A stretch of DNA of 48,365 bases from Pseudomonadota bacterium (GTDB lineage Bacteria; Pseudomonadota; Gammaproteobacteria; Steroidobacterales; Steroidobacteraceae), in assembly GCA_025351005.1 (NCBI GenBank), contig JANXWS010000016.1:1-48365 (forward strand), in the 5' to 3' direction. A program made the position numbers and the translations under genes. The notes under the pieces are model-generated. The model did no database searches and was not told the origin of the DNA. It worked only from the letters and a program-made list of their open reading frames with translations. Below, in pieces: positions 40,817-48,365 of the stretch (its first letter is position 1; each line of letters starts with the position of its first letter).

Positions 40817-41728
40817 TCAGGGCATGCGCGCGCCGCGTGAGGCCTCGAGCACCCGGTACCACTCGGCGCGCGTCAGCACCACGCGGTAGGCGCCCGCCGC
40901 CTCGCGGATGCGTTCCGGCGACTGCGTACCGACCAGCGGCACCGGCCGCGCCGGGTGCGCCATGACCCAGGCGTAGGCAGCGGCGCTGCGGGAGACGCCG
41001 CTGCGGCCCGCGATCTCGTCGAGCACGGCGATCACCGCCGACTCGCGCGCATCGCCGCCGCCAGCCGTCAACCGGCCCTGCCCGAGCGGGGACCAGGCGA
41101 GCACGGCGATCCCGGTCTCGAGCGCCAGGTCGAGGATGCCGTCCGTGAGCGGCGCAATCGCAAGCGGGGAGAACTCCGGTTGCAGGCTCGCGAGCGGCAG
41201 CGTCAGGTGCGCGAGCAGTGCACGCGTTTGCGCCGCGCTGTAATTCGACACGCCGGCGGCGCGGATCTTGCCCTGCCGGTGCAGCGTCTCGAACGCCTGG
41301 GCCACCTCCGCCGGGTGGGCGAGCAGGTCGGGGCGGTGCACCTGCAGCAGGTCGACCTGCTCGAGGGCGAGCCGGCGCAACGAGGCCTCGCACGCCCCGA
41401 CCAGGTAGGCGGCCGAGGAGTCGTAGGGCACCGGGGGCACGATCCCGGCCTTGGTCGCGAGCACCATGCGCTCGCGCAGCGCGGGCGAGCCGCGCAGCAC
41501 CCGCCCGAGGAGCTCCTCGGCGGCGCCGAACCCGGTCTCGCCGCCGTAGCCGTAGATGTCCGCCGTATCAAAGAGCGTACAACCGATCTCGAGTGCCGCC
41601 TCGATCCTCTTGCGGGCCGCCGCGACGTCGGCCCCGGCGAGGCGCCACATCCCCCAGCCGAGCGGCGCGACCGACAGGCCGCTGCGGCCGAGCGGGATCC
41701 GGGTCTGGGCGTTCGTGTCGGCAGCCAT
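40817..41728 (-). CDS. Aldo/keto reductase
   Basis: The product has 303 residues. The catalytic tetrad of the AKR superfamily is present: Asp54 and Tyr59 (DTADIYG), Lys93 (LATKAGI) and His131 (LLQVHRPD). The TIM barrel continues with RAAGVSNYSAAQT and the C-terminal cofactor region (VPLVGTQSPERIREA), which binds NADP(H). The substrate aldehyde or ketone is unknown. It begins 47 bp downstream of hyfI in the same direction, so it may be read from the same transcript, though it has no known link with that complex. Confidence 0.9.
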   Translation of the reverse strand: MAADTNAQTRIPLGRSGLSVAPLGWGMWRLAGADVAAARKRIEAALEIGCTLFDTADIYGYGGETGFGAAEELLGRVLRGSPALRERMVLATKAGIVPPVPYDSSAAYLVGACEASLRRLALEQVDLLQVHRPDLLAHPAEVAQAFETLHRQGKIRAAGVSNYSAAQTRALLAHLTLPLASLQPEFSPLAIAPLTDGILDLALETGIAVLAWSPLGQGRLTAGGGDARESAVIAVLDEIAGRSGVSRSAAAYAWVMAHPARPVPLVGTQSPERIREAAGAYRVVLTRAEWYRVLEASRGARMP

Positions 41729-41775: not shown

Positions 41776-42309
41776 TCAGCGCTCGGCCGCTTGCGCGCCG
41801 CGGACGGCGGGACTGATCGCCGTCAGGATCGCCTGCAGCAGCCGCTCCGGCGACGGCGGGCAGCCGGGTACCGCAACGTCGACCGGGATCACCGCGGACA
41901 CCGGGCCCGCCGTGGCGTAGCCGGCACCGAAGATCCCGCCGGTGCAGCCGCAGTCGCCGACCGCAACGACCAGCTTCGGGTCCGGGGTCGCATCGTAGGT
42001 GCGGCGCAGTGCCACCGCCATGTGCCAGGACACGGGGCCCGTGACGAGCAGCAGGTCGGCATGGCGCGGGCTCGCGACGAAACGGATGCCGAGGCCCTCG
42101 ATGTTGTAGATCGGGTTGTTGAGGGCGTGGATCTCGAGCTCGCAGCCGTTGCAGGAGCCCGCATCGACCTGGCGGATGCAGAGCGCCCGGCCGAGGCTCG
42201 CGAGGATCTCGGCCTGCAGCACCTCGCGCAGCCGCAACGTCTCGTCCGGCTCGGGAGCGGGCTCCGAGACGATGCCGATCCCGGCGATGGTGCGCAGTGC
42301 CTTGAGCAT
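41776..42309 (-). CDS. hyfI: HyfI/NuoB-like iron-sulfur subunit
   Basis: The product has 177 residues. The start at 42309 is the first Met after the large-subunit stop. Cluster-N2-type cysteines are all present: DAGSCNGCELE, GDCGCTGG and VPGCPPSP. This is the small subunit of group 4 hydrogenases and of complex I (NuoB), which carries one [4Fe-4S] cluster next to the large subunit's active site. A Pro-rich N-terminus (SEPAPEPDE) precedes the domain. It is the last gene of the hyf-like run. Confidence 0.88.
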   Translation of the reverse strand: MLKALRTIAGIGIVSEPAPEPDETLRLREVLQAEILASLGRALCIRQVDAGSCNGCELEIHALNNPIYNIEGLGIRFVASPRHADLLLVTGPVSWHMAVALRRTYDATPDPKLVVAVGDCGCTGGIFGAGYATAGPVSAVIPVDVAVPGCPPSPERLLQAILTAISPAVRGAQAAER

Positions 42310-42314
42310 GGGCG

Positions 42315-43859
42315 CTAGAGGTCGTGGCCGCTGTAGGCCAGGTTGAACGACTTGTTGATCAGCGGGAAGTCGGGAACGATGTTGCCGATCACCGCGTGCT
42401 CGAGGACGGGCCAGTTCTGCCACGAGGGATCGTGCGCATGGCAGCGGTGGATCCGGCCGCGCTCGCGGCTCTCGAGCGCCACCAGCACCGGACCCCGCCA
42501 GCCTTCGATGACGCCGACGGCCGGCGGGCCGGGGTCCGGTGCCGCGAGCGGAGCACGGAGCGCACCACCCGGCAGCTCGCTCAGCAGCGCGCGGGCCAGC
42601 CGGCAGGATTCCTCGACCTCGTCGAACCGGACGGCGACGCGGGCGGCGACGTCGCCATCTCGCCGCAGGCAGCGCTTTGGCGTCAGGACGTGGTACGGCG
42701 GCCAGCTCGAGTCGATGCGCAGGTCCGCCGGCTGCCCGCTGGCGCGGCCGGCGAGGCCGGTCAGCCCGAGGCGCCGAGCGAGTTCCGGCAGGACGGTGCC
42801 GGCGCCGGCGAAGCGGTCGCGCACGCCCGCGTGGTCGTCGTAGATCGCCCGCAGCGCGCGGACCGCGGCCGCAAGCTGGCCGAGCCGGGCGGCGAGCAGG
42901 CCGGCAGCCTCGTCGTCCGCGTCGGCGGCGACGCCGCCTGGCACGACCGCATCCAGCAGGTAACGCTGGCCGAACACCTGTTGCACGCTGCGCAGCAGCT
43001 CCTCCTTGAGGCGCGAAAACTGCGACAGTCCGAACGCGAAGCCGGCGTCGTTGCCGAGCGCGCCGAGATCACCGAGGTGGTTCTGCAGTCGCTCGATCTC
43101 GAGGTACACGCCGCGCAGCCACACGGCTCGCGGCGGCGCCGTCGCGCCGCAGAGGCCCTCGAGCGCCTGGCAGTAGGCCCAGGCGAACGCCACGGCGGAG
43201 TCACCGCAGATGCGGGCAGCGAGGCGATGGCCTTCCAGTATCGGCAGCTCCGTGAAGCGCCGCTCGATGCCCTTGTGCGCGTAGCCGAGCCGTTGCTCGA
43301 GCCTGAGCACCTTCTCGCCGACGATCGAGAGCCGGAAGTGGCCTGGTTCGATGATGCCCGCGTGCACGGGCCCGACCGGCACCTCGTGCACGCCGTCACC
43401 GGCGACGCGCACGAACGGGTAGTCGTCGGCCGCAGGCACCGCGACCCGCGGCACGGCCGTCGGCGCTGCCAGCGGCCACTCGTCCGCCCGCCACGCGGCG
43501 TGCCGCAGCCACGGGCGCTGGTCGGCAGCGTCGGAGCGGATGCCGGTCAGGTCGGTCACCGCACGCTGCATGCGGGCCGCGGCCGGGAAGACCTCGTGCA
43601 GGCCGCGATAGGGTTGCGCCGGATCCGCGACCGCCAGCTCGAGCACCAGCAGGCCACCGTCGACGAAGAGCGCCGCGCGCACGGCGGCGGCCGGCACCGA
43701 CTCCGGGTACAGCGTGCCCCACAGCGCGAGCAGCTGCCCGCCCGAGGCCGCGACATCGGCCGCAGCGTCGACCCACTCCGCCGGCCCGACGTGCAGCAGG
43801 CCGCCGGCCCGCCTGCCGGCTAGCGCGGCGGCCTTCTCCCACCGTCGCTGCAGCGCCAT
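42315..43859 (-). CDS. hyfG: HyfG/HycE-like large subunit lacking nickel ligands
   Basis: The product has 514 residues. A NuoC-like N-terminal part (about 1-130) is followed by a NuoD/HycE-like part (VPVGPVHAGIIEPGHFRLSI, LGYAHKGIERRF, EIERLQNHLGDLG, DGDVAARVAVRFDEVEESCR). In [NiFe] hydrogenases the L1 motif has two cysteines (CxxC); here it reads RICGDS, keeping only Cys218 with Ser221 in the second place. The C-terminal L2 pair (DPCxxC) is absent: the end reads VIGNIVPDFPLINKSFNLAY. Nickel-iron binding is therefore unlikely. It matches energy-converting-hydrogenase-related (Ehr) large subunits. Confidence 0.88.
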   Translation of the reverse strand: MALQRRWEKAAALAGRRAGGLLHVGPAEWVDAAADVAASGGQLLALWGTLYPESVPAAAVRAALFVDGGLLVLELAVADPAQPYRGLHEVFPAAARMQRAVTDLTGIRSDAADQRPWLRHAAWRADEWPLAAPTAVPRVAVPAADDYPFVRVAGDGVHEVPVGPVHAGIIEPGHFRLSIVGEKVLRLEQRLGYAHKGIERRFTELPILEGHRLAARICGDSAVAFAWAYCQALEGLCGATAPPRAVWLRGVYLEIERLQNHLGDLGALGNDAGFAFGLSQFSRLKEELLRSVQQVFGQRYLLDAVVPGGVAADADDEAAGLLAARLGQLAAAVRALRAIYDDHAGVRDRFAGAGTVLPELARRLGLTGLAGRASGQPADLRIDSSWPPYHVLTPKRCLRRDGDVAARVAVRFDEVEESCRLARALLSELPGGALRAPLAAPDPGPPAVGVIEGWRGPVLVALESRERGRIHRCHAHDPSWQNWPVLEHAVIGNIVPDFPLINKSFNLAYSGHDL

Positions 43860-43860
43860 G

Positions 43861-45318
43861 TCACGGGCCTCCGATCAGTCGCGCCGCGTCGCGATACCAG
43901 CCGGCGAGGTAGGGAGGAATGAAGACGCCGAGCATCAGCACGATCGCGAGGTGCAGGAACACCGGCAGCAGTGCGGGTGCATGCGGCAGGCGCCGCACGT
44001 TCGTCTCGCCGAACACCATCGGCTGGACCTTGCCGAAGATCGCCGCAAACGCGACCCCGAGTGCCAGCAGCAGCAACGGCGTCGCCCAGGGCTGCTGCTT
44101 CATCGCCGTCGTCAGGATCAGGAACTCGCTCGCGAACACGCCGAACGGCGGCAGGCCGAGGATCGCGAGCGTCCCCAGCATCAGTCCCCAGCCGATCGTC
44201 GGGCTGACCGTGATCAGGCCGCGGATGTTCTCGATCAGCTGCGAGCCGGACTTCTGCGCCGCGTGGCCGACCGCGAAGAAGATGGCCGACTTGGTCAGCG
44301 AATGCACCGTCATGTGCAGCAGGGCCGCAAAGTTGGCGACCGCTCCGCCCATGCCGAAGGCGAACGTGATGATGCCCATGTGCTCGATCGACGAGTACGC
44401 GAACAGCCGCTTGATGTCTCGCTGCCGCCACAGGAAGAACGCCGCCAATATCACCGACAGCAGGCCGAAGCCCATCAGCATCTGTGAGGGCAGCGTCGAG
44501 CGCAGCGAACCCTCGACGAGCACCTTGCAGCGCACGATCGCGTAGATCGCGACGTTGAGCAGCAGCCCGGACAGCACCGCCGAGATCGGCGTCGGACCCT
44601 CCGCATGCGCATCGGGCAGCCAGTTATGCAGCGGCGCCAGCCCGACCTTGGTGCCGTAGCCGACCAGCAGGAATACGAAAGCTAGGCTGAGCACGGTAGG
44701 CTCGAGCTGCGCCTTGACGACGTTGAGATGCGTCCAGAGCAGTGCCGTCACGCCCTCGGCGCCGAGCACGCGCTCTGCCGCGAAGTACAGCAGGATCGTG
44801 CCGAACAGCGCCTGCGCGATGCCGACGCCGCACAGGATGAAGTACTTCCAGCCGGCCTCGAGGCTGGCCGGCGTGCGATAGAGCGTCACCAGCAGCACGG
44901 TCGAGAGCGTCGCCGCCTCCATCGCCACCCACAGCAGGCCGAGGTTGTTCGTGGTCAGGGCGAGCAGCATGGTCGCCGTGAACAGCTGGTACATGCTGTG
45001 GTACAGGCGCAGCCGGCCGTGCCCGAGGCGTCCGTGCTCCGCCTCGACGCGCATGTACGGGCGGGAGAAGAGCGCCGTCGTCAGGCCGATCAGCGCGGTC
45101 AGTGCCACGAGGAAGACGTTGAACGGGTCGATGAAGAGCTGCTCGCGCGCGACCAGCACCGGGCCGCTCGCGATCACCCGCGCGGTCAGGGCGCAGGCGG
45201 CGGCGAAGGTCGTGAAACTGAAGAACGCGTTCAGCTCGGGCGCCCAGCGTCGCGAGCCGTACAGGCCGAGCAGCACGGCTCCGGCGAGCGGCGAGGCCAG
45301 CAGCAGCAGCACCTCCAC
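43861..45318 (-). CDS. hyfF: HyfF-like proton-translocating membrane subunit
   Basis: The product has 485 residues and about 14 membrane helices. Key charged residues of the NuoL/M/N antiporter-like family are visible: WVAMEAATL (Glu134), GYGTKVGLAPLHNWLPDAHA (Lys224), and HSLTKSAIFF in the later half. AHAEGPTPISAVLSG is the family signature loop. It would pump protons or sodium ions in the complex. Its stop lies one base before the hyfG start. Confidence 0.9.
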   Translation of the reverse strand: MEVLLLLASPLAGAVLLGLYGSRRWAPELNAFFSFTTFAAACALTARVIASGPVLVAREQLFIDPFNVFLVALTALIGLTTALFSRPYMRVEAEHGRLGHGRLRLYHSMYQLFTATMLLALTTNNLGLLWVAMEAATLSTVLLVTLYRTPASLEAGWKYFILCGVGIAQALFGTILLYFAAERVLGAEGVTALLWTHLNVVKAQLEPTVLSLAFVFLLVGYGTKVGLAPLHNWLPDAHAEGPTPISAVLSGLLLNVAIYAIVRCKVLVEGSLRSTLPSQMLMGFGLLSVILAAFFLWRQRDIKRLFAYSSIEHMGIITFAFGMGGAVANFAALLHMTVHSLTKSAIFFAVGHAAQKSGSQLIENIRGLITVSPTIGWGLMLGTLAILGLPPFGVFASEFLILTTAMKQQPWATPLLLLALGVAFAAIFGKVQPMVFGETNVRRLPHAPALLPVFLHLAIVLMLGVFIPPYLAGWYRDAARLIGGP

Positions 45319-45319
45319 G

Positions 45320-45988
45320 CTAGTCGCCCTCCCGCAGCGACTCGAGGTGGTGCAGGTCGAGGCTGTCGAACTGCTCGCGGATCTGGAAGAAGAACACGCC
45401 GAGCACCAGCACCGCCACCAGCACGTCGAGCGCGACGCCGAGCTCGACCACCATCGGCATGCCGTAGGTCGCGCTCATGGCGCCGAAGAACAGCCCGTTC
45501 TCCATGGACAGGAACGCGACGACCTGCGACATCGCCTTGCGGCGCGTGATCATCGTCAGGAAGGCGAGCAGGATGACCGCGATCGCTATCCCGAGCGTAC
45601 TGCGCGTCGCGGTGCTGGCGAGCGCCGAGATCGGCTGCGCCAGGCCGAACGAGAACACGACGATCAGCAGGCCGAGCAGCATCGTGGCGGACGGGTTGAT
45701 CGCCGGCTCCGCGTCCCAGTAGACGTTGAGGCGCCGGATCAGGCGGTGCAGCAGCCACGGCAGGCCGACGACCTTGAGCGCGAGCGTCAGCAGCGCCGAC
45801 AGGTACAGGTGCACTTCACCGGTCCGCCACGCGAGCAGCAGGGTCGCTGCCAGCAGCAGCGCACCCTGCAGTGCGAGCAGGTTGACGAGGCTGACGATGC
45901 GCCGCTGCGCGAGCATCGCGAACGACAGCAGCAGCAGCAGCGTCGCGCAGGCGTTCAGCAGTTGCAGGTCGATGGAGAGCGCGGTCAT
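45320..45988 (-). CDS. hyfE: HyfE-like membrane subunit
   Basis: The product has 222 residues. Hydrophobic segments include LLNACATLLLLLSFAMLAQR, NPSATMLLGLLIVVFSFGLA and a last helix VELGVALDVLVAVLVLGVFF. The arrangement, with FLSMENGLFFGAMSATYGMP, matches HyfE, related to the NuoK/MnhC type. It is one base from hyfF. It belongs to the membrane arm. Confidence 0.85.
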   Translation of the reverse strand: MTALSIDLQLLNACATLLLLLSFAMLAQRRIVSLVNLLALQGALLLAATLLLAWRTGEVHLYLSALLTLALKVVGLPWLLHRLIRRLNVYWDAEPAINPSATMLLGLLIVVFSFGLAQPISALASTATRSTLGIAIAVILLAFLTMITRRKAMSQVVAFLSMENGLFFGAMSATYGMPMVVELGVALDVLVAVLVLGVFFFQIREQFDSLDLHHLESLREGD

Positions 45989-45995
45989 CGGGTCC

Positions 45996-46946
45996 TCAGG
46001 TGCCGAGCAGCAGGTGGACCAGCAGGCCGAGCACGGCGAGCAGGAACGCCGTGGCGAGGAACTCCGGTGCCCGGAACACCCGCAGCTTGGCGGACAGCGT
46101 CTCGATCAGCGCGAGGCCGACGCCGGCGAAGCCGAGCTTGAGTACCAGCAGCGGCACGGCCAGCAGCAGGCCCGCGGGGCCCGCGGCCTCGGTGCTGGTG
46201 CCCCACGGGACGAAGAGCGCGAAGCCGATGCAGGCATAGTTGAGGAGCTTGAGCGCGGACCCCCACTCCATGAGCGCCAGGTGCCGCGCCGAGTACTCGA
46301 GCAGCATCGCCTCGTGGATCATCGTCAGCTCGAGGTGCGTCGCCGGGTTGTCGACCGGGATGCGGGCGTTCTCGGCGAGCAGCACCAGCAGGAAGGCGAC
46401 GGCGGTGAAGGCGAGGCTCGGGTAGAGCCCGATGCTGCGGGTCGCGAGTCCCTCGGCGATCAGCGGCAGCGACGTCGTCTTGGAGATCATCGCGGCGACG
46501 AACAGGACCATCAGCAGCGCCGGTTCGGCGAGGAACCCGACCATCATCTCGCGGCGCGCGCCAAGGGTGCCGAACGCGGTGCCGACGTCCATCGCGGCGA
46601 GCGACAGGAACACCCGGGCGGTTGCGAGCAGGCCGACCAGTGCGATCCCGTCGGCGGCCATCGACAGCGGCAAGCCGGTGCCCATCGACGGGATGATCGC
46701 CGCGGCGACCACCATGGCACCGAACACGACGTACGGGGCGACGCGGAACAGCGGCGAAGCGGACTCGGCGAGCACGGCGTCCTTGCGAAACAGCTTGCTC
46801 AGTCCGTAGTACGGCTGCAGCAGGGAGGGTGCGCTGCGGTTCTGCAGCCACGCGCGGCACTGGTTGACCCAGCCGAGGAACGCCGGCGCCGCGATCGCCG
46901 CGCAGATCATCTCGAGCAGCTGTGTCGCGGCGCCGAGCGAGGTCAT
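45996..46946 (-). CDS. hyfC: HyfC-like (NuoH/HycD) membrane subunit
   Basis: The product has 316 residues. Its ATG overlaps the hyfB stop (ATGA). NuoH/HycD hallmarks are seen: LLQPYYGLSKLFRKDAVLAE, GTLGARREMMVGFLAEPALL, AENARIPVDNPATHLELTMI (with the conserved Glu and Asp of the quinone-side loop) and a long helix at the end. It anchors the iron-sulfur arm to the membrane. Length is as in HycD (about 310). Confidence 0.93.
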   Translation of the reverse strand: MTSLGAATQLLEMICAAIAAPAFLGWVNQCRAWLQNRSAPSLLQPYYGLSKLFRKDAVLAESASPLFRVAPYVVFGAMVVAAAIIPSMGTGLPLSMAADGIALVGLLATARVFLSLAAMDVGTAFGTLGARREMMVGFLAEPALLMVLFVAAMISKTTSLPLIAEGLATRSIGLYPSLAFTAVAFLLVLLAENARIPVDNPATHLELTMIHEAMLLEYSARHLALMEWGSALKLLNYACIGFALFVPWGTSTEAAGPAGLLLAVPLLVLKLGFAGVGLALIETLSAKLRVFRAPEFLATAFLLAVLGLLVHLLLGT

Positions 46947-48365
46947 AGCACGAGCGCCAGCAGCACGAGCAGCGTCACGAAGCTGTACATCAGGTAGGTA
47001 GCAATGCGGCCCTGCTGCAGTCGCGCGACCCGATCGGCCACCCAGTGCACCGACGCGCCGAGCGGCTCGTAGAGCACGCTCCAGGCACGGTCGCCGATCG
47101 TGACCTGGTAGCGGGGCGCAACGTCGAACGGCGTCGGCACCTCGCGCTTGATCAGGAAGAACGGCTCGAATATGTGGCGGATGGGCTGGCCGAAGCCCTC
47201 CGCCGTGTCCTGCATGCGGGCGTCGAGCCGGACGAAGCCGCAGTCCCAGGCCGGGCCGCGCCGCACCGCGCGCCGGTACAGCCGCCGAACCAGCAGAATC
47301 GCGAGCGCGACGATCAGCACCGTCATCGCGAACAGCACGACCGGGCCGTAGGACGCCTGGCGCGCGGCCGCCGGCGCCAGCAGCCACCAGTGCGCGCCCC
47401 AGCTGCCCGGCGCCAGCCCGAGCAGCTGGCGCTGGACCGCGTCGAGGCGCTCGATGACCTGCACCGGGAACAGCCCGAGCAGTACGCACCCGAGCGCGAG
47501 CCAGCCGAGACCGATGCGCTCGATGGGACCCGCATCGCGCGCGCGGGCCAGCGAGCGTTCGCGCGGCTGGCCGAGGAAGATGATGCCGAAGAACTTCACC
47601 ATGACGTAGCCGGCGAGCGCGGTGGAGAGCGCCACGACCGCCGCCCCCACCGGCAGCAGCATGTTGAGGAAGGTCTTCGGCACGTCGCCGGCGAACAGGA
47701 ACGCCTGCAGCAGCAGCCACTCGGAGACGAAGCCGTTCAGCGGCGGCAGCCCGGCGATCGCGAGCGCCCCGACCAGCGTCAGCCAGGCGACCCAGGGCAT
47801 GCGGTGGATCAGGCCGCCGAGCCGGCCCAGGTTGCGCTCACCGGTCGCGTGCAGCACCGAGCCCGTGCCCAGGAACAGCACGCTTTTCATGAAGGCGTGG
47901 TTGAGGCAGTGATAGAGCGTCGCGATCAGCGCGAGCGCCGCCAGCGGTCCCATGCCGACGGCCTTGAAGACGATCGTCAGCCCGAGCCCGGTGAAGATGA
48001 GCCCCATGTTCTCGATCGACGACCACGCCAGCAGGCGCTTCATGTCGGTCTGCACGGCGGCGAAGATGACGCCGTAGAAGGCCGCGACCAGCCCGAGACC
48101 GAGCGCCAGCAGCCCCCACCACCACTGCAGCGAGCTCAGCAGGTCGAAGGCGACGCGCAGCATCCCGTACACGGCGGTCTTCAGCATCACTGCGCTCATC
48201 AGCGCCGATACCGGCGAGGGCGCCGCCGGGTGCGCTTCCGGCAGCCACACGTGCATCGGCACGAGCCCGGCCTTGGCCCCGAAGCCGAAGAGCGCGAGCA
48301 CGAACGCAGCGCTCGCCCACGGCGGGCTCAGGTGCGCAGCCCGCATCGCGTCGAACGTGAACTGC
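46943..48365 (-). CDS. hyfB: HyfB-like proton-translocating subunit, 5' partial
   Basis: The frame runs off the end of the window; about 474 residues are present of a family norm near 670, so roughly 200 N-terminal residues are missing. The antiporter signature GFGAKAGLVPMHVWLPEAHP, NHAFMKSVLFLGTGSVLHAT and RLLAWSSIENMGLIFTGLGL identify it. The Lys of AKAGL and AFMKS are the expected proton-path residues. The C-terminal part (PAWDCGFVRLDARMQDTAEG) is the extended HyfB tail. It is the first visible gene of a leftward run hyfB-C-E-F-G-I. Confidence 0.92.
   Translation of the reverse strand, partial: QFTFDAMRAAHLSPPWASAAFVLALFGFGAKAGLVPMHVWLPEAHPAAPSPVSALMSAVMLKTAVYGMLRVAFDLLSSLQWWWGLLALGLGLVAAFYGVIFAAVQTDMKRLLAWSSIENMGLIFTGLGLTIVFKAVGMGPLAALALIATLYHCLNHAFMKSVLFLGTGSVLHATGERNLGRLGGLIHRMPWVAWLTLVGALAIAGLPPLNGFVSEWLLLQAFLFAGDVPKTFLNMLLPVGAAVVALSTALAGYVMVKFFGIIFLGQPRERSLARARDAGPIERIGLGWLALGCVLLGLFPVQVIERLDAVQRQLLGLAPGSWGAHWWLLAPAAARQASYGPVVLFAMTVLIVALAILLVRRLYRRAVRRGPAWDCGFVRLDARMQDTAEGFGQPIRHIFEPFFLIKREVPTPFDVAPRYQVTIGDRAWSVLYEPLGASVHWVADRVARLQQGRIATYLMYSFVTLLVLLALVL

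Follow-up and report, generated by a model that had tools for sequence, protein, structure and literature searches.

A probable nickel-free Ehr complex encoded by a six-gene hyf-like operon in a member of the Steroidobacteraceae

The window described here is the whole of contig JANXWS010000016.1 (48,365 nucleotides, referred to as C41) from assembly GCA_025351005.1, a 2.71 Mb draft in 90 contigs, 85.8% complete, of a gammaproteobacterium of the family Steroidobacteraceae. Its minus strand carries, at 41776-48365, a contiguous run of six genes in the order hyfB-C-E-F-G-I. The encoded complex is very probably an Ehr, which we take to be the established name for hyf-like complexes devoid of nickel ligands, rather than a hydrogenase, and it probably translocates ions. 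The best explanation overall, held with middling confidence, is that of a complete, selected, nickel-free Ehr complex whose electron donor is a soluble carrier. The narrower proposal, that such a carrier acts directly on the single iron-sulfur cluster of the complex, is inferred and put forward tentatively.

The six-gene set and the nickel-free catalytic subunit are already in print in outline, in passages of PMC6131200 and PMC4378227. What is added here is the lack of an electron-entry subunit shared with relatives, a truncated C-terminus and a rebuilt pocket in the large subunit, and the contrast with a related clade found under fluoride riboswitches. The comparison thereby yields specific, testable points: the residues that replace the nickel site, the absence of a nearby entry subunit, and a sister clade under fluoride control.

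The six-gene run and its relatives

The genes of the run, all on the minus strand, are listed below in the order of transcription.

46943-48365, minus strand: hyfB, antiporter-like ion pump subunit, truncated at its 5′ end by the contig boundary (NCBIfam NF005086)
45996-46946, minus strand: hyfC, NuoH/HycD-like membrane subunit (Pfam NADHdh, 9e-30)
45320-45988, minus strand: hyfE, hydrogenase-4 membrane subunit (NCBIfam NF008556, 4e-26)
43861-45318, minus strand: hyfF, second antiporter-like ion pump subunit (NCBIfam NF005045)
42315-43859, minus strand: hyfG, NuoC+NuoD-like large subunit without nickel ligands (Pfam Complex1_49kDa; best PDB match HycE, 7z0s_E, both in sequence and in fold)
41776-42309, minus strand: hyfI, NuoB/HycG-like small subunit with one [4Fe-4S] site (Pfam Oxidored_q6, 2e-31)

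An earlier reading of the window, made from the sequence only, had described these genes as contiguous with overlaps or gaps of at most 7 bases, and this is the case: hyfB and hyfC overlap by 4 bases, and gaps of 7, 1, 1 and 5 bases separate C/E, E/F, F/G and G/I, respectively. For hyfI, an ATG start at 42309 is favoured over a GTG at 42423. HyfF (858 bits, cut-off 543) and HyfB (670 bits, cut-off 667) match the NCBIfam models for hydrogenase 4 subunits F and B, and HyfE matches that for the hydrogenase 4 membrane subunit at 92 bits, under the cut-off of 136.

Patterns derived from the window's own HyfG served to find relatives, and the best 80 of at least 559 confirmed were compared (their loci carry L numbers below). 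The 81 sequences referred to throughout are those of these loci plus the window, and invariance among them therefore describes close relatives. All six genes are present in 72 of the 80 loci, and in 56 of the 72 the run is flanked by more than 1 kb on each side; in seven of the eight incomplete loci a contig ends where the missing genes would lie. Gene order is an unbroken part of B-C-E-F-G-I in 78 of the 79 loci checked; L082 reads B-C-F-G-I, its hyfE call being missing or merged, and L063, outside that check, has the B-C-E-F-G-I order on separate inspection. Eight further loci from the window's class (L107-L114) have the same six genes, and further genomes and plasmids also carry the same order. 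A Rhodococcus relative reads I-B-C-E-F-G, matching what we take to be the order of the mycobacterial genes Rv0082-Rv0087. Relatives of this large subunit are widespread: when 185 genomes from the window's class, its own included, were sampled, 26 gave a match at E ≤1e-60, and the weakest of these matches (~240-275 bits; G040, G118, G148) may belong to other groups. At that threshold, no match was obtained in one other genome of the window's family or in one of its order within the sample.

The sequence-only reading had proposed extending the contig beyond 48365 in search of hyfA/hyfH, and this can be done within the same assembly, which also completes the truncated hyfB. A search with part of the closest relative's hyfB located C1, a contig of 7,148 bp whose final 141 bases are identical to the window end. 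It supplies the ~194 missing 5′ codons, giving a whole HyfB of ~667 aa if the TTG at C1:6427 is the start. The end of a CBS-domain-like open reading frame (ORF) lies 382 bases before hyfB on C1 (below the Pfam cut-off, with a homologue only in L004), and farther upstream is a divergent aminotransferase gene with close homologues upstream in L004, L005, L007 and L008. Neither hyfA nor hyfH was seen among the C1 ORFs. The idea that their absence is an artefact of the contig end was rejected, since the exact overlap with C1 completes hyfB and adds neither gene.

Nickel site and rebuilt pocket of HyfG

Alignment of HyfG with HycE places RICGDS on the L1 motif RVCGIC and NLAYSG on the L2 motif DPCYSC, leaving one of the four nickel-binding cysteines (positions C218, S221, A508 and G511). 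The single remaining cysteine and the lack of DPCxxC had been reported from the window alone; both stand for the window itself, but the lone cysteine is not a family feature. Position 218 is serine in 63 sequences, cysteine in nine and alanine in nine, and position 221 is serine in 70, threonine in nine, and alanine and cysteine in one each. Position 508 is never cysteine and position 511 is glycine in 79, alanine in one and arginine in one, such that the L2 cysteines are absent from all 81 sequences. Since 71 of the 81 keep none of the nickel cysteines and ten keep one, the window's survivor is, on this alignment, incidental, a matter of drift and no relic under selection. The correction made here to the sequence-only reading is thus one of emphasis: its six-gene set was already in print, and the surviving cysteine is without meaning.

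Other features of a working nickel site are missing as well. The window's HyfG stops 32 residues short of the E. coli HyfG C-terminus, and 79 of the 80 relatives end where the window's protein does, without the 32-residue tail. In hydrogenases, the C-terminal tail is removed after nickel insertion; the maturation cut of HycE presumably falls after Arg537, and HyfG ends roughly at this assumed protease site. HyfG therefore seems to be encoded at its mature length already. HypD was not found in the window's own assembly (85.8% complete; other hyp genes were not searched for), nor did the assembly give any match to the NiFe hydrogenase large subunit family PF00374. Of the 25 other genomes that gave a large-subunit match, 13 likewise yielded no HypD, and the remaining 12, in which it is present, may contain other hydrogenases. 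The assignment to Ehr, which the sequence-only reading had made, is sustained by these results, the L2 pair being restored in none of the 81 sequences.

In place of the nickel ligands, the alignments indicate that the former pocket is rebuilt with residues invariant in the 81 sequences, namely D220, R455, C473, H474, H476 and D477. Invariance extends to I170, G219, W454, P478, S479, W480, Q481 and N482, and N502, K503, S504, F505 and N506 are each kept in 79 or 80 sequences. R455 presumably corresponds to the arginine found close to the Ni-Fe site in hydrogenases. Outside the 81, the CHxHD motif is kept in L107 and L108 and reads VHCHD in L109, CHxRD in L114 and FPRD in L110-L113. More distant members keep D477-P-S and N-K-S with varying residues before them, for example CHxRDPSW in alphaproteobacteria, LKIVDPSF in Rhodococcus and YWPRDPSV in Methylococcales. 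The structure model of the HyfG chain alone (mean predicted local distance difference test score, pLDDT, 81.8) matches the overall fold of HycE 7z0s_E with a TM-score of 0.81 by query.

A complex I-like quinone reductase, in which the HyfI cluster would pass electrons to quinone at the junction of HyfG, HyfI and HyfC, would make sense of the retained NuoD/NuoB/NuoH-like arm and of the conserved glutamates of HyfC. Its difficulty lies in the site itself. His38 and Tyr87 of Thermus Nqo4, which we take to be the quinone head-group contacts, align to I170 and G219 in each of the 81 sequences. In addition, no NADH-module gene was identified in the six-gene run (NuoE and NuoF were not searched by name). 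With the nickel cysteines lost and these two residues replaced, HyfG is, as far as the alignments can tell, without both nickel ligands and the usual quinone contacts of complex I, and a quinone reductase is considered unlikely.

Ion movement, electron entry and neighbouring genes

Residues of the pumping and cluster-bearing subunits are conserved to an extent that argues for function. In HyfB, K31, H156, K160 and E215 (P0006 numbering) are kept in 69/69 to 72/72 sequences, and in HyfC the glutamates at 135, 143, 194, 208, 214 and 219 (P0005 numbering) in 77/77. K72, E163, E182 and D188 of HyfE are kept in 78/78, as are E134 and K224 of HyfF, with H335, K343 and E398 of the latter in 80/80. 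The E. coli proteins have the same residues at the listed positions of HyfB and HyfF, the six HyfC glutamates, and K72, E163 and E182 of HyfE. Such charged residues presumably form the ion path, as in the antiporter-like family, and the ion-movement machinery accordingly looks to be under selection. The four cluster ligands of HyfI, cysteines 68, 71, 135 and 165 (P0002 numbering), are kept in 80/80.

A decayed or mis-sequenced hydrogenase 4 could account for the loss of three of the four nickel cysteines and for the missing D, H, J and A genes. It is barely credible in view of six open frames (hyfB being whole once C1 is added), closely spaced genes, a loss common to 81/81 sequences, the invariant replacements D220 and HDPSWQNWP, and the nearly invariant NKSFN. 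Moreover, conservation of the HyfI cysteines and of the pump residues in HyfB, HyfC, HyfE and HyfF points to a live, nickel-free Ehr complex instead.

The means by which electrons enter is less apparent from the gene content. In E. coli formate hydrogenlyase, proteins of the HycF/HyfH type carry electrons to the small subunit, and the E. coli hyf locus has A, D, H and J in addition to the six genes, as the sequence-only reading had stated. E. coli HyfA, HyfH and HyfJ were searched for in every ORF of at least 60 aa, and among the loci searched no homologue adjoins a window-type run. HyfJ matched only the positive controls, E. coli (L084) and the Azospirillum formate hydrogenlyase (L094). HyfA and HyfH matched the controls plus proteins ~4.7-4.8 kb downstream in L047 and L056 (a multi-ferredoxin protein in L056), and HyfH gave weak matches to L051 and to the HyfI fusions of L090 and L093. 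Matches of HyfD were the expected paralogues, HyfB and HyfF. The absence of a ferredoxin-like HyfH/HyfA subunit, noted earlier within the window, thus continues beyond the contig end on C1 and in relatives, and on these searches is real and common to the group, with no contig-end effect. The sole HyfH-like protein found in the assembly (C46:4258) is very probably NuoI of complex I, its contig also carrying NuoD and a molybdopterin protein.

Two further explanations bear on this gap. The complex might be a non-redox ion valve or antiporter, with HyfG and HyfI merely gating HyfB and HyfF, which would suit a system without an electron-entry subunit, nickel ligands or complex I quinone residues. 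A purely structural arm would hardly need four cluster cysteines kept in every HyfI, however, and this explanation is rated below a quinone reductase. Alternatively, a formate dehydrogenase (FDH), in the FDH-Ehr pairing, or some other dehydrogenase encoded elsewhere might feed the complex. Passages of PMC6349859 propose such feeding for Riflemargulisbacteria and Saganbacteria, and a table in PMC6131200 lists six Hyf subunits of Nitrospira moscoviensis with FdsA/B/G and an FhlA activator. Apart from the molybdopterin protein adjacent to complex I, the window's own assembly does encode others, on C76 and C83. Against this, the FDH gene comes with NuoE/NuoF-like genes in the phyla covered by those passages of PMC6349859, there is no HyfA/HyfH-type connector in the run or flanks here, and no FDH gene is among the annotated neighbours, which are part of all neighbours. 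Feeding by a dehydrogenase is accordingly held to be improbable. As a separate observation, C76:38982-40634 (L096, L098) holds a molybdopterin oxidoreductase frame with one in-frame TGA, which could denote a selenocysteine enzyme or a frame error.

The favoured reading, a nickel-free Ehr complex with a soluble donor, would operate as follows. HyfB and HyfF would be two ion-pumping channels, HyfC and HyfE membrane linkers (HyfC likely being the link of the soluble arm to the membrane), and HyfG with HyfI a short soluble arm having the fold of formate hydrogenlyase and complex I and a single iron-sulfur cluster site. As there is no gene for an electron-entry subunit, the HyfI cluster would be reduced by a soluble one-electron carrier of the ferredoxin or flavodoxin type docking directly at the place of HyfH. 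Electrons would then reduce a small acceptor in the rebuilt HyfG pocket (D220, R455 and D477, with C473, H474 and H476 also present in close beta- and gammaproteobacterial relatives), and movements of the pocket would pass via HyfC to HyfB and HyfF, moving H+ or Na+. Several points weigh against this reading. CHxHD is not universal, with alphaproteobacteria, Rhodococcus, Methylococcales and L109 differing, and quinone may be bound in some way other than that of complex I. The pocket geometry is uncertain, as the modeled stretches lining it (134-174 and 492-514) have pLDDT below 50. Finally, no partner gene recurs widely: the largest of 38 neighbour clusters, each of at least three members, is present in 10 of the 80 loci, and a shared partner was rejected on this basis.

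Neighbouring genes are correspondingly varied. Representatives of 19 of the 38 clusters were annotated and are mostly housekeeping or similar (MetG, ScpA, RecG, UbiA, RlmL, MFS, DUF1275, CLC and the like), three of them lacking a Pfam match. The gene downstream of the run in the window is as follows.

40817-41728, minus strand: aldo/keto reductase, 47 bases 3′ of hyfI (Pfam PF00248, 2e-55)

In L006, L007 and L008 a homologue of it comes first after the run, and it is a same-strand neighbour in some closest relatives only. Spermidine-synthase-like genes recur on either side of the run, with 13 ORFs in nine loci plus L085, L100 and L101, and show no convincing link to the operon; near window-type operons, including those of L064, L065, L010 and L020, they lie before hyfB or after hyfI. 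ORFs of 80-200 aa occur upstream of hyfB in many loci, and a small conserved gene common to them was considered and rejected. Of 22 inspected, many are arginine-rich and mutually unlike (one, in L004, has no Pfam match) and are probably shadow ORFs. The few that look real differ by locus, being of the ArsR type in L037 and OmpA-like in L068 and L080; the ArsR-family gene (L037:560-946, from a metagenome-assembled genome titled Acidobacteria) overlaps hyfB. In four of five alphaproteobacterial plasmid loci (L086, L104, L105 and L106, not L087), a small helix-turn-helix regulator gene stands directly before hyfB, that of L086 being of the HTH_3 type. In Accumulibacter (L063:12242-21476), antiporter-like genes around a 1,113-aa protein directly follow the hyf operon, and are perhaps, at a guess, an inorganic-carbon transporter cluster.

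The fluoride-riboswitch clade and known systems

Searches of plasmids revealed further Ehr genes in Mycobacterium branderi, Alicyclobacillus, Burkholderia cenocepacia, B. multivorans and Caballeronia. The fluoride riboswitch (Rfam RF01734) precedes these genes in all five loci fetched (L090, L091, L093, L100 and L103), which amount to about three independent cases because the sequences of L093, L100 and L103 are closely related. L091 yielded only the large subunit, and a NUDIX gene lies between the switch and hyfC in L090. The large subunits of the five loci have zero or one of the four nickel cysteines. Gene order is C-E-F-G-I-B in four of the five (not L091), HyfI of L090, L093, L100 and L103 matches ferredoxin domains or HyfH and is fused to a ferredoxin-like domain, and EASFGL or DASLGL stands in place of NKSFNL. 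In a tree, three of these sequences and 20 window-type rows group together to the exclusion of true HyfG (support 98/97; long branches flagged), and the fluoride clade is placed by this topology, with its long branches, as the sister of the window clade. Passages of PMC2864571 and PMC11139923 name "formate hydrogen lyase" among the commonest enzymes associated with fluoride riboswitches. The present comparison suggests that, in the five loci (about three independent), the enzyme so named is a nickel-free Ehr rather than a formate hydrogenlyase.

Close relatives of the window show neither a fluoride riboswitch directly before hyfB nor a ferredoxin-fused HyfI. At the gathering score, no such riboswitch was found in six window-type loci or in the window's own assembly, and none was found in a Thermales relative (L102) or in a Variovorax locus (L101). 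A riboswitch model built for this work was run over 91 sources, several of them without sequence upstream of hyfB and with L107-L114 outside the scan; at E <1e-5 it marked only L083, L090, L091 and L093, the last three being training loci. In L083, from P. piptadeniae, two riboswitches lie ~2.5-3.8 kb upstream of hyfB and are separated from it by a divergent DUF1275 gene. In tandem on the Variovorax plasmid (L101:1-12000) are portions of two unlike Ehr complexes; the first has an NKSFD motif and a HyfI with ferredoxin-like domains fused to it. On the B. multivorans plasmid (L100:1-34000), crcB, two eno, two inorganic diphosphatase, two mutS, two DUF190, NUDIX and dynamin genes occur with nine fluoride riboswitches, and a window-type hyf operon comes next.

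These loci raise a further explanation, namely that the window's complex serves anion or acid stress homeostasis of the fluoride type, as may hold for the sister clade. The riboswitches before the sister genes are in its favour, as are the B. multivorans stretch with both complex types beside crcB, eno, ppa, mutS and DUF190, and the two distant riboswitches of P. piptadeniae. In the window-type loci searched (75 with hyfB and upstream sequence), however, hyfB is never immediately preceded by a fluoride riboswitch, nor was one found in the own assembly, and the explanation is given little credence, slightly more than that of a separate dehydrogenase. Regulation through FNR boxes was also considered. 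With up to two mismatches, 19 of 75 upstream regions have a box versus 9.1 expected, and with up to one mismatch four versus 1.4, with no exact box; the control consisted of stretches drawn at random from these loci, most of them coding. This was set aside as no clear signal, though the observed numbers lean above those expected.

Taken jointly, these results allow a broader picture that is speculative as a whole. The window clade would be the most stripped-down ion-pumping relative of complex I, with one iron-sulfur cluster, no dedicated entry subunit, and the Ni-Fe cavity converted to a polar pocket of a new kind (Asp/Arg/Asp, to which most beta- and gammaproteobacterial members add Cys-His-x-His-Asp). 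It would either receive its electrons at the proximal cluster, straight from a soluble carrier, or be a stress-gated ion pump, and the fluoride-riboswitch clade would be its stress-specialised sister.

Compared with known systems, E. coli hyf and the Azospirillum formate hydrogenlyase share B, C, E, F, G and I with the window in the same relative order. Unlike it, they have A, D, H and J and all four nickel cysteines, with hycI, hypA and hypC also in the Azospirillum locus and the 32-residue tail on E. coli HyfG. The fluoride-riboswitch clade is alike in its paucity of nickel cysteines (zero to one of four) and differs in order, fused HyfI, motif and riboswitch. Features of three established groups are lacking in the window's complex: RxCGxC...DPCxxC, HypD in the own assembly and the C-terminal tail of [NiFe] hydrogenase group 4; the ferredoxin-like HyfA/HycB and HyfH/HycF of formate hydrogenlyase; and the quinone-site His/Tyr of NuoD, together with NuoEFG and NuoI in the run, of complex I.

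A table in PMC6131200 gives Nitrospira moscoviensis the same six subunits (B, C, E, F, G and I), with no HyfA, D or H listed there, under the name of formate hydrogenlyase and alongside FdsA/B/G; the likeness is by gene list. A mycobacterial hyc cluster with hycP/hycQ appears in part of PMC2799521. In Margulisbacteria and Saganbacteria, FDH with NuoE/NuoF-like genes is the partner proposed in the passages of PMC6349859, and no such genes were found in the run or flanks here. For Sulfobacillus, passages of PMC4378227 describe group 4 catalytic subunits without nickel motifs, in sets of six syntenic genes similar to Ehr, the reaction of which is stated there to be unknown. The Ehr of Sulfobacillus (PMC4378227) and of Riflemargulisbacteria (PMC6349859) have, as described in these passages, the same group 4-like large subunit free of nickel motifs, and likewise NuoL/HyfB/HyfE-like or antiporter-like subunits, their function being described there as unknown or at most suspected. 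The window's complex corresponds to them by description, having a group 4-like large subunit without Ni-Fe motifs and, in HyfB and HyfF, Mrp/NuoL-like antiporter subunits.

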